From Prasinococcaceae sp. CCMP 1430 (taxonomy: Eukaryota; Prasinodermophyta; Palmophyllophyceae; Prasinococcales; Prasinococcaceae), in contig RQSC01001045.1 in the NCBI GenBank assembly GCA_013416795.1, forward strand, positions 1 to 29,920: a DNA stretch of 29,920 nucleotides, in the 5' to 3' direction. The position numbers were made by a program, and so were the translations under genes. Numbering within the stretch: the first letter of the stretch is position 1; each line of letters opens with the position of its first letter. Positions 7,981 through 13,431 of the stretch are shown here, one piece after another. The notes under the pieces were generated by a model that was given only the letters and a program-made list of their open reading frames with translations, was not told the DNA's origin and ran no database searches.

Positions 7981-8085
7981 CCGCCCGTCGAGGGCGCGTC
8001 GGCGCTCCGCGGTGCCCGCCGAGGGTGGCGAGGGAGCCGTGAGCCCGCTTTCACCGGCGGAGCGCGTCATCGTGCGCTGAGCAGA
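7981..8085 (-). promoter_or_regulatory. Candidate SECIS element in the 3' UTR of the glutaredoxin gene
   Basis: Read on the minus strand: ATGA (8070-8067), an unpaired C, GCGCTCCGC (8065-8057), a bulged C, GGTG (8055-8052), then AAA (8051-8049) opening a 34-nt GC-rich apical region. The returning arm is CACC (8014-8011), GCGGAGCGC (8010-8002), an unpaired C and GA (8000-7999). This gives 13 Watson-Crick pairs between the ATGA/GA non-canonical core and the apical AAA, as in eukaryotic SECIS elements. Below the core, AGCGCACG can pair with CGCGCCCT with two mismatches. The 15-nt ATGA-to-AAA spacing is slightly longer than usual. The long apical region, in which GCGGG can pair with CTCGC, suggests form 2. 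It starts about 130 nt after the glutaredoxin stop. Not tested with a SECIS search program. Confidence 0.65.
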
Positions 8086-8199: not shown

Positions 8200-8559
8200 C
8201 TAGGCCTTGCGCACGGCCGGCGAGCACCTCTCCAGGTACGTCTCCAGGCTGCCGTCTGCCACGACCGTCATCAGGCCCGGGCCGTCGTTGCAGCCGCCGA
8301 TGAACTCGCCGCCGATGAAGATGGCCGGCACGCTCGTGCGGTTGACGCGCGCCGCGAGCTCGGCGCGCAGCGGGGCGCCGTCGGGATCGGCGTCCGCGCC
8401 CGTGAGCTCAATCGCGGTGTAGTTCAGGCCAAGGCGGTCGAGTTCCGCCTTGGCCTGCACGCAGAAGGGTCACGTGGGGAAGGAGAGCATCAGGATGTCC
8501 GTGGTGTTGATGAGGTCCTCGAGGCGACCGCGCACGCGCTCGACGTCGTAGTCGCCCGC
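8200..8559 (-). CDS. Selenocysteine-containing glutaredoxin (active site TUPFC), 5' end unresolved
   Basis: Dithiol-type glutaredoxin in which the first active-site cysteine codon is TGA (8470-8472). The frame on both sides is continuous glutaredoxin: DYDVERVRGRLEDLINTTDI and LMLSFPT before the TGA, PFCVQAKAELDRLGLNYTAI after it, then NRTSVPAIFIGGEFIGGCND (the conserved TSVP cis-proline and GGCND glutathione-binding motif) and stop TAG at 8200-8202. Reading TGA as selenocysteine gives U-P-F-C in place of C-P-F/Y-C. A SECIS-like hairpin follows in the 3' flank. The first exon is not resolved: no in-frame ATG lies before the Met just upstream of the active site. An Ala/Ser-rich stretch upstream could be part of a targeting peptide, and a TG microsatellite lies beyond. 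The alternative is a sequencing error (TGC or TGT read as TGA) or a pseudogene. Confidence 0.78.
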
Positions 8560-8763
8560 GGCGCTGCGCGCGGCCGCGCGGGCGCTCGAGGAGGCGGAGG
8601 AGGCGGTGGCAGAGCGCGGCGGGGAGGGAGGAGATGACGGAGGAGGCGGACAGGGAGGAGGGGAAGATGGCGAGCGGCGGGTACGTGCGTGCGAGCGCCG
8701 CGGAGCGCCTGCGATCGCCGCGTGGGGGTGTTAGCGCGTGTGTATACGCTTGCGTGTGAGCCT

Positions 8764-8765
<2 letters not shown>

Positions 8766-8815
<50 letters not shown>

Positions 8816-8938
8816 GTGTGCGTGTTTGTGTGTGTGTGTGCGCGCGCGCGCGCATGCGCGTGTGTGTGCGCGCACGTGTGTCTGCGCGCGCGCCATTGTG
8901 CTTGCGTCTGCGTGTGCGCGCGTGCGCGCGCGTGTGCT
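8766..8938. repeat. (TG)n / (CG)n compound microsatellite
   Basis: About 21 perfect TG dinucleotides from 8767, then interrupted TG/CG alternation to about 8938. Alternating purine-pyrimidine DNA of this kind can adopt Z-form. It separates the 5' regions of the divergently transcribed glutaredoxin and unidentified plus-strand genes. Confidence 0.9.
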
Positions 8939-11017: not shown

Positions 11018-11825
11018 NNNNNNNNNNNNNNNNNNNNNNNNNNNNNNNNNNNNNNNNNNNNNNNNNNNNNNNNNNNNNNNNNNNNNNNNNNNNNNNNNNN
11101 NNNNNNNNNNNNNNNNNNNNNNNNNNNNNNNNNNNNNNNNNNNNNNNNNNNNNNNNNNNNNNNNNNNNNNNNNNNNNNNNNNNNNNNNNNNNNNNNNNNN
11201 NNNNNNNNNNNNNNNNNNNNNNNNNNNNNNNNNNNNNNNNNNNNNNNNNNNNNNNNNNNNNNNNNNNNNNNNNNNNNNNNNNNNNNNNNNNNNNNNNNNN
11301 NNNNNNNNNNNNNNNNNNNNNNNNNNNNNNNNNNNNNNNNNNNNNNNNNNNNNNNNNNNNNNNNNNNNNNNNNNNNNNNNNNNNNNNNNNNNNNNNNNNN
11401 NNNNNNNNNNNNNNNNNNNNNNNNNNNNNNNNNNNNNNNNNNNNNNNNNNNNNNNNNNNNNNNNNNNNNNNNNNNNNNNNNNNNNNNNNNNNNNNNNNNN
11501 NNNNNNNNNNNNNNNNNNNNNNNNNNNNNNNNNNNNNNNNNNNNNNNNNNNNNNNNNNNNNNNNNNNNNNNNNNNNNNNNNNNNNNNNNNNNNNNNNNNN
11601 NNNNNNNNNNNNNNNNNNNNNNNNNNNNNNNNNNNNNNNNNNNNNNNNNNNNNNNNNNNNNNNNNNNNNNNNNNNNNNNNNNNNNNNNNNNNNNNNNNNN
11701 NNNNNNNNNNNNNNNNNNNNNNNNNNNNNNNNNNNNNNNNNNNNNNNNNNNNNNNNNNNNNNNNNNNNNNNNNNNNNNNNNNNNNNNNNNNNNNNNNNNN
11801 NNNNNNNNNNNNNNNNNNNNNNNNN
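11018..11825. other. Assembly gap (808 N)
   Basis: A run of 808 undetermined bases. It hides the 5' ends of the divergent THUMP-methyltransferase and cystathionine beta-synthase genes and any promoter between them. Confidence 1.
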
Positions 11826-13431
11826 CAAGGCGGCGCTCGCGGCGCTCGACGCGGCGGCGCTCGGGGCGGGCGCGCCGAGCCGCTTCTCGCGGCGGGCCAA
11901 CGTGTACTCGCGCCTCGACCACCACGAGGCGCTCGAGGCGCGCCCCAAGGGGACGTGCGCGTCGGTGCTGGACGCCATCGGCAACACCCCGCTCGTCCGC
12001 CTGCGCAACATCGAGAAGGCCGAGGGGCTGGCCTGCGAGGTGTACGCCAAGTGCGAGTTCCTCAACGCGGGCGGCTCGGTGAAGGACCGCATCGCCAAGC
12101 GCATGGTGGAGGACGCCGAGGCCAAGGGGCTGTTGCAGCCGGGCGACACCATCATCGAGCCCACGAGCGGCAACACGGGCATCGGCCTCGCGCTCGCCGC
12201 GGCCGTCAAGGGCTACCACTGCATCGTGGTGATGCCCGAGAAGATGTCCAAGGAGAAGGCGGATGTGCTCAATGCGCTGGGCGCGAAGATCGTACGCACT
12301 CCCAACGAGGCGGCCTGGGACGCGCCCGACTCTCACATCTCTGTGGCCGCGCGCCTCAACTCGGAGACGCCCCGCTCGCACATTCTCGATCAGTACACCA
12401 ACGTGGGCAACCCGCTCGCGCACTACGACGGCACGGGCGCCGAGATCCTCGAGCAGATGGACAACAGGGTCGACGTGCTCGTGGCCGGCGCGGGCACGGG
12501 CGGCACGCTCACCGGCACGGCCAGGCGCGTGCTCGAGGGCTGCCCCAACGCGCGCGTGGTGGGGGTCGACCCGCTGGGATCCATCCTCGCGCTCCCCGAG
12601 AGCCTGAACACCTCCGAGGAGAACGTGTCGCAGGGTATGTACCAGGTGGAGGGCATCGGCTACGACTTCATCCCGGCGGTGCTCGACCGCGAGGTGGCGC
12701 ACGAGTGGGTCAAGTGCAACGACGAGCAGGCCTTCCGCTGGGCGCGGAGGCTCATGCGCGAGGAGGGGCTGCTGTGCGGCGGCTCGAGCGGCGCGGCGTT
12801 CTCGGTGGCCATCGGCGAGGCGCGCAAGCTCAAGGCCGGCGAGCGACTGGTGGTGGTGCTGCCCGATTCCATCCGCAACTACATGACCAAGCACCTCGAC
12901 GACGACTGGATGGTGGAGAAGGGCTTCATGCAGGCGTCCGCCGTCGGAGACCGCTCGCAGCCGTGGGCGGCCAACACCGTCAGCGAGCTCGCGCTCGAGT
13001 CGCCCGTCACCATCTCTCCCGGCATCGCCCTGAGGCGCGCGGTGGAGATAATGAACGCCAAGGGCTTCGACCAGCTGCCCGTCGTGGACGTTGGCGGACG
13101 CGTGATGGGAGTGGTGACCGAGGGCAACATCTCAGCCAAGGTGACGAGCGGCGCGGCCTCGCTGGACGACCCCGTCGAAACCATCGTGTACAAGGACGTC
13201 GCGCGCGTGCTCAGCTCCACCACGCTCGCAGAGCTCTCGCGGAAGTTCAACCGCTATCACTTTGCGCTGGTGACGCGCAACCAGACCCGCTACTCCAACG
13301 CCGGCGAGGAGATCCACACGATGGTGACGGCCGTGGTGACGCGCATCGACCTGCTCAAGTTCATCTCCGCCAAGGCGCAGCATGGGCGCGCCGCCAACGG
13401 CGTCGCCACGGACGTCGCGCCGTGCGCGTGA
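11826..13431 (+). CDS. Cystathionine beta-synthase, 5' end in gap
   Basis: PLP enzyme condensing serine and homocysteine to cystathionine (transsulfuration). The catalytic domain shows [20 protein letters not shown], the PLP lysine in [14 protein letters not shown] (codon 12082-12084), the phosphate-binding [32 protein letters not shown], and the Ser-containing [11 protein letters not shown] with [13 protein letters not shown] near the domain end. A C-terminal pair of CBS (Bateman) modules follows ([40 protein letters not shown]), which in the animal enzyme bind S-adenosylmethionine. The YMTKHL region and the paired CBS modules favour true CBS over cysteine synthase. Whether the animal haem-binding N-terminus exists cannot be seen. 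No intron is visible. Stop TGA at 13429-13431. Confidence 0.93.

Follow-up and report, generated by a model that had tools for sequence, protein, structure and literature searches.

Whether an in-frame TGA is a genuine stop or a codon for selenocysteine (Sec) is the question raised by a glutaredoxin (Grx) gene in the 29,920-nucleotide stretch of DNA analysed here, hereafter the window. The gene lies on the minus strand, a point left unstated in the sequence-only reading of this DNA; the plus-strand letters at 8470-8472 are tca, and a plus-strand translation was rejected because it contains no Grx. The minus-strand translation of 8200-8700 reads ...VRGRLEDLINTTDILMLSFPT, the TGA, PFCVQAKAELDRLGLNYTAIELTGADADPDGAPLRAELAARVNRTSVPAIFIGGEFIGGCNDGPGLMTVVADGSLETYLERCSPAVRKA and the closing stop, the TGA at 8472-8470 being the only internal stop. 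The following features were delimited:

8203..8562, minus strand: glutaredoxin coding exon of 120 codons including the TGA, recognised by PF00462 and by GC3, its 5' border being approximate
8470..8472, minus strand: in-frame TGA at the catalytic (nucleophilic) position, very probably read as selenocysteine, from the translation and the Cys of its relatives (a biased sample)
8200..8202, minus strand: TAG stop codon of the glutaredoxin frame, from the translation

The frame is intact on both sides of a single TGA located at the catalytic Cys, just as the sequence-only reading had described it: PF00462 matches across the TGA with an E-value of 5.2e-15 when this codon is read as Cys, no other stop is present, and a six-frame genome search that kept the stop in place recovers the Grx stretch with an E-value of 9.1e-11. 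In that six-frame search, this was the only one of the 15 glutaredoxin matches of the genome to carry an internal stop. GC3 hardly changes across the TGA (0.97 ahead of it, 0.94 in the 89 codons that follow), so both flanks look equally coding. The sequence around the TGA is LMLSFPT-TGA-PFCVQAKAELDRLG, which places the TGA exactly at the nucleophilic Cys of a class I dithiol glutaredoxin (T-U-P-F-C), and the TSVP and GGCND motifs, whose preservation had also been reported, are both present downstream in the translation. The protein thus combines a Grx domain, U-P-F-C in place of C-P-[YF]-C, and glutathione motifs of the TVP and GG-x-D types, features that we take to define class I dithiol glutaredoxins, TSVP and GGCND presumably forming the glutathione site. 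Searches against the PDB retrieved 38 distinct sequences with E-values up to 0.001, the best being 5zvl (E 1.2e-12); most bear the name glutaredoxin or thioltransferase, and the remainder (thioredoxin reductase 3, thioredoxin-glutathione reductase and HI0572) we take to be carriers of a Grx domain. The Uxx-star glutaredoxin-like (seleno)protein family (NF041212) gave 21.7 bits, below its curated cut-off of 66, and the protein is not assigned to it.

The extent of 8200-8559 given in the sequence-only reading fits the conserved part of the gene but does not cover all of it, as the feature extends to a putative SECIS element at 7998-8070. On the 5' side, the frame is closed by a stop at 8733, and the sole in-frame ATG, at 8490, falls inside the domain, six codons ahead of the TGA; neither a start codon nor exon 1 was located in the exon frame between the stop at 8733 and the conserved domain. 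By eye, the conserved part is preceded by a stretch rich in pyrimidines, which points to a possible intron. A long GT/CA microsatellite occupies 8740-8860 of the window; read in the minus sense, it lies shortly before the conserved Grx exon, and it may belong to an intron or to a promoter shared with a divergent gene on the plus strand. Elsewhere in the window, an N run (11018-11825), which may be an assembly gap or withheld sequence, lies inside a gene-dense region. A frame at 11982-13428 matched no family, probably through a wrong choice of frame.

The residue aligned with the TGA was Cys in 97 of 97 relatives (80 viral, 15 bacterial and two paralogues of the same genome, L001 and L006), a count that is biased, since one of the six search patterns demands CPFCVQAK and the viral set consists of the best 80 of 187. 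The locus displays the pattern of a eukaryotic selenoprotein gene, with an in-frame TGA aligned with the Cys of its homologues and coding conservation on both sides. A viral origin of the gene was discarded, as the viral relatives (the same best 80 of 187) reach 31-44% identity in their best segments and all have Cys.

The strongest evidence for Sec comes from an element absent from the sequence-only reading, located about 130 nt past the TAG and on the same strand as the Grx frame:

7998..8070, minus strand: SECIS-like element consisting of ATGAC, a 13-bp helix with one bulge, AAA plus an apical region of 37 nt, and CGAC, in the presumed 3' UTR, from the core scanner, the fold and the shuffles

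From 8070 down to 7998, the sequence is ATGAC-GCGCTCCGCCGGTG-AAAGC...CACCGCGGAGCGC-CGAC, so that the 3' flank holds the succession typical of a eukaryotic SECIS (ATGAN, helix, apical AA, NGAN), and the minimum free energy fold contains the 13-bp helix with the AAA opening the apical region. A scanner requiring [AG]TGAN, an arm of 9-15 nt, AA, an apical region, a complementary arm and NGAN, written after the candidate had been spotted by eye, gave this element a score of 34, and no other site on either strand of the window reached 24. When dinucleotide-preserving shuffles (3-kb blocks, Ns removed, both strands counted) were scanned, sites of at least 34 were found six times in 5697 shuffled windows, that is, 0.00105 per window. 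The Rfam SECIS model did not report the element even with E-values up to 10 and gave no SECIS in a scan of the locus or in one of eight loci, and the folding energy of this GC-rich sequence is ordinary with respect to shuffles (z of -0.58 and -1.21). Therefore, the case for the SECIS rests on its conserved core, helix and position rather than on its stability.

Other genes with a TGA of this kind are present in the genome, a 24.5-Mb assembly of 145 contigs that is eukaryotic by its introns and genes. It contains a PAP_fibrillin gene and, in AT-rich sequence on contig C136, an apparently organellar EF-Tu gene, from which we infer the algal nature of the organism. Glutathione peroxidase (GPx) gave nine matches on seven contigs; six of the nine carry exactly one TGA, and in all six it falls at the Sec position (e.g., NVAGL-TGA-GTT and NVASR-TGA-GAT), while the seventh GPx gene, on C11, has Cys in place of Sec. 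Together with a SelT/Rdx gene and a DsbA-like gene, the TGA-bearing genes are:

Contigs C68, C3, C89, C135, C76 and C75: TGA-bearing GPx genes (loci L023, L024, L025, L026, L028 and L060)
G000:C107:226295-226705, minus strand: SelT/Rdx gene (L021), the sole SelT/Rdx match, with one TGA (FCQS-TGA-QMAG)
G000:C82:810484-815000, minus strand: DsbA-like gene (L050), with VTCTQ-TGA-PHGY and a PF01323 match of E 1.6e-11 with X at the TGA

The DsbA-like gene, found through the SECIS-like element directly downstream of it, is, judging by its sequence, probably a further selenoprotein gene.

SECIS-like elements accompany several of these genes. Genome-wide, the Rfam SECIS model gave three weak matches, none of them over its cut-off; the two best of these sub-threshold matches follow GPx genes, that of C3 at 206 nt and that of C68 at 201 nt from the stop of the last exon (an exon recognised by eye), and the third is on C82. 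Our scanner, applied to 49 loci (156,035 bases, some overlapping), found five sites scoring at least 24, and four of them are downstream of TGA-bearing genes on the coding strand: behind the Grx gene, the GPx gene on C89 (98 nt past the stop), the DsbA-like gene on C82 and the GPx gene on C75, the last being called downstream without its last exon being defined. The fifth site, in L006, does not share the strand of its gene and probably arose by chance. Below that threshold, the GPx genes on C3 and C68 score 17, with a second site of 17 in L018, and the GPx gene on C76 and the SelT gene have only weak candidates with a score of 20; behind the GPx gene on C135, the scanner found no SECIS-like site, none reaching even 13. 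The six SECIS sequences of the genome align poorly and their loops are very different. The 37-nt apical region of the Grx element contains two small hairpins, compared with 8-19 nt in the other elements of the genome, leaving out the weak SelT candidate with 49.

Regarding the machinery for Sec, for which the sequence-only reading had proposed a check, the results were mixed: SepSecS was found and PSTK probably so, but tRNA-Sec, eEFSec and SPS were not. SepSecS is encoded in the genome, with a PF05889 match of E 4.2e-112 and a match of E 2e-107 to 3hl2, which we take to be the human structure. A locus on C54 (L044), which carries DDNHFYRSMRREFY, gave a collinear three-part match to eukaryotic PSTK (E-values of 3e-8, 0.005 and 0.01), and PSTK (TIGR03575) was the best of 43 NCBIfam families on it, with an E-value of 4.8e-16, though this match falls short of the curated cut-off; from these matches, it is probably the PSTK gene. 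None of the 11 Rfam matches for tRNA-Sec in the genome reached the cut-off, and the eight of these 11 candidates that have loci were assigned by ARAGORN to Leu, Ser, His or Gly tRNAs. Searching for tRNA-Sec with patterns gave no match for one of them and six for a looser one, against four in the control. Stretches rich in tRNAs are present on C136, C41 and C98, where the recurrence of tRNA sets suggests that the assembly contains duplicated copies. By eye, none of the 15 TIGR00475 matches of the genome looks like eEFSec, and they presumably correspond to EF-Tu, IF2, LepA, TypA, eIF2-gamma, HBS1, BMS1 and EF2/EF-G types. The genome search did not find SelD/SPS, which is described in PMC4561486 as conserved in all selenoprotein-encoding genomes. 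In an exon-wise search, the AIRS domain had no match at all in the assembly. This domain is common to SPS and to the purine enzymes PurM and PurL, which a free-living alga should have. The void, in which PurM and PurL are missing as well, thus indicates that the assembly is incomplete or that the exon-wise search missed these genes, and the absences in the machinery weigh little. The genes that were not recovered would then be expected to exist in the organism.

Other explanations of the TGA must be confronted with these observations. A sequencing or assembly error, the true codon being TGC or TGT in an ordinary Cys glutaredoxin, would require a single base, and the sequence is not free of defects, as the window contains three single Ns besides the run at 11018-11825. 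However, such an error would account neither for the SECIS-like element that follows on the same strand after 130 nt nor for the matching TGA pattern in other genes of the genome, and we regard it as very improbable. A pseudogene, or a Grx copy inactivated by a nonsense mutation, appears slightly less probable still: the lack of a start codon upstream of the conserved domain within the exon would be in line with decay, but there is no other stop or frameshift, a strong GC3 bias and conserved motifs persist over the 89 codons past the TGA, and a SECIS is present.

The least probable explanation, to which we give hardly any credit, is that the TGA is spliced out or is a sense codon in this genome. 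Splicing around the TGA, which the sequence-only reading had named as an outcome that would overturn its proposal, was examined on the sequence: a GT..AG pair 19 nt apart does start one base before the TGA, but removing 19 nt breaks the frame, and among the 20 in-frame GT-AG pairs spanning the TGA, all seven of at most 150 nt (the other 13 being longer) delete the UPFC motif. As for a sense codon, TGA ends six of the 11 window ORFs checked, and a plain change of the genetic code was rejected on the same grounds, since TGA terminates other genes. A selenoprotein of bacterial type was also discarded, given the eukaryotic type of the SECIS and the presence of SepSecS.

Selenocysteine is by far the best reading of the TGA, because a SECIS-like element is well placed behind the gene, other genes carry a TGA at the Sec position, SepSecS is encoded and PSTK probably so; on this evidence, we adopt the identification of the TGA as Sec made in the sequence-only reading. 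The locus is thus, with a high degree of confidence, a genuine eukaryotic selenoprotein gene, encoding a class I dithiol-type Grx whose N-terminal active-site Cys is replaced by Sec (UPFC). From established knowledge of class I glutaredoxins and of eukaryotic Sec insertion, a mechanism can be proposed. If the gene is expressed, SBP2 and eEFSec with Sec-tRNA would be recruited by the SECIS hairpin in the presumed 3' UTR, Sec would be inserted at the UGA, and the protein would end 90 codons further on, at the TAG. By analogy, the selenolate could act as the nucleophile in the reduction of protein disulfides or of mixed disulfides with glutathione, and perhaps of peroxides, and the intermediate would then be resolved by GSH or by the second Cys (PFC), three residues further along.

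This gene, with its SECIS, is a well-supported addition to the Sec-glutaredoxins, a family that has been seen in some algae only, and the GPx, SelT and DsbA-like genes point to a larger selenoproteome in the genome. Any annotation that reads TGA solely as a stop would truncate such genes. Given the engineered selenium-glutaredoxins with glutathione peroxidase activity, which are cited as GPx mimics in a review (PMC10298544), a natural Sec-Grx may bridge thiol-disulfide and peroxide chemistry. Since Cys-Grx paralogues are present in the same genome, the benefit that Sec brings to this enzyme is directly testable. A further idea is that Cys changed to Sec in the Grx of this lineage independently of the known algal Sec-GRX clade, and that its SECIS, whose apical region is long and branched, represents a divergent form missed by standard models; we consider this unlikely.

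Among known systems, class I dithiol glutaredoxins (CPYC/CPFC; 5zvl) share with the window protein the fold family, the resolving Cys of PFC, and TSVP and GGCND, and differ in that the nucleophilic Cys is here replaced by Sec. In bacteria, the SECIS is located within the coding region, just after the UGA. The SECIS of the window gene, in contrast to that of bacterial Sec Grx, is of eukaryotic type and located in the 3' flank. A bacterial selenoprotein glutaredoxin is attributed to Kim et al. (2011) in PMC3281104, and the GOS survey (PMC2398784) lists bacterial Sec Grx and Grx-like proteins, which have in common with the protein described here that they are UxxC glutaredoxins.

The closest counterparts are found in algae. 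According to Jiang et al. (2020, PMC7539508), the occurrence of Sec-containing GRX is limited to haptophytes and several selenoprotein-rich SAR species, Plantae having none, and most Sec-GRX share an ancestor; the GPx, SelT and DsbA-like families are also listed there. The replacement of Cys by Sec had been presented in the sequence-only reading as known in algae, which agrees with these reports for SAR algae and haptophytes, and the enzyme type is, on the strength of the same paper (PMC7539508), not new to algae. As in the algal Sec-GRX described there, the gene of the window encodes a eukaryotic algal Grx with Sec, in a genome that contains other selenoproteins and Cys-GRX paralogues.
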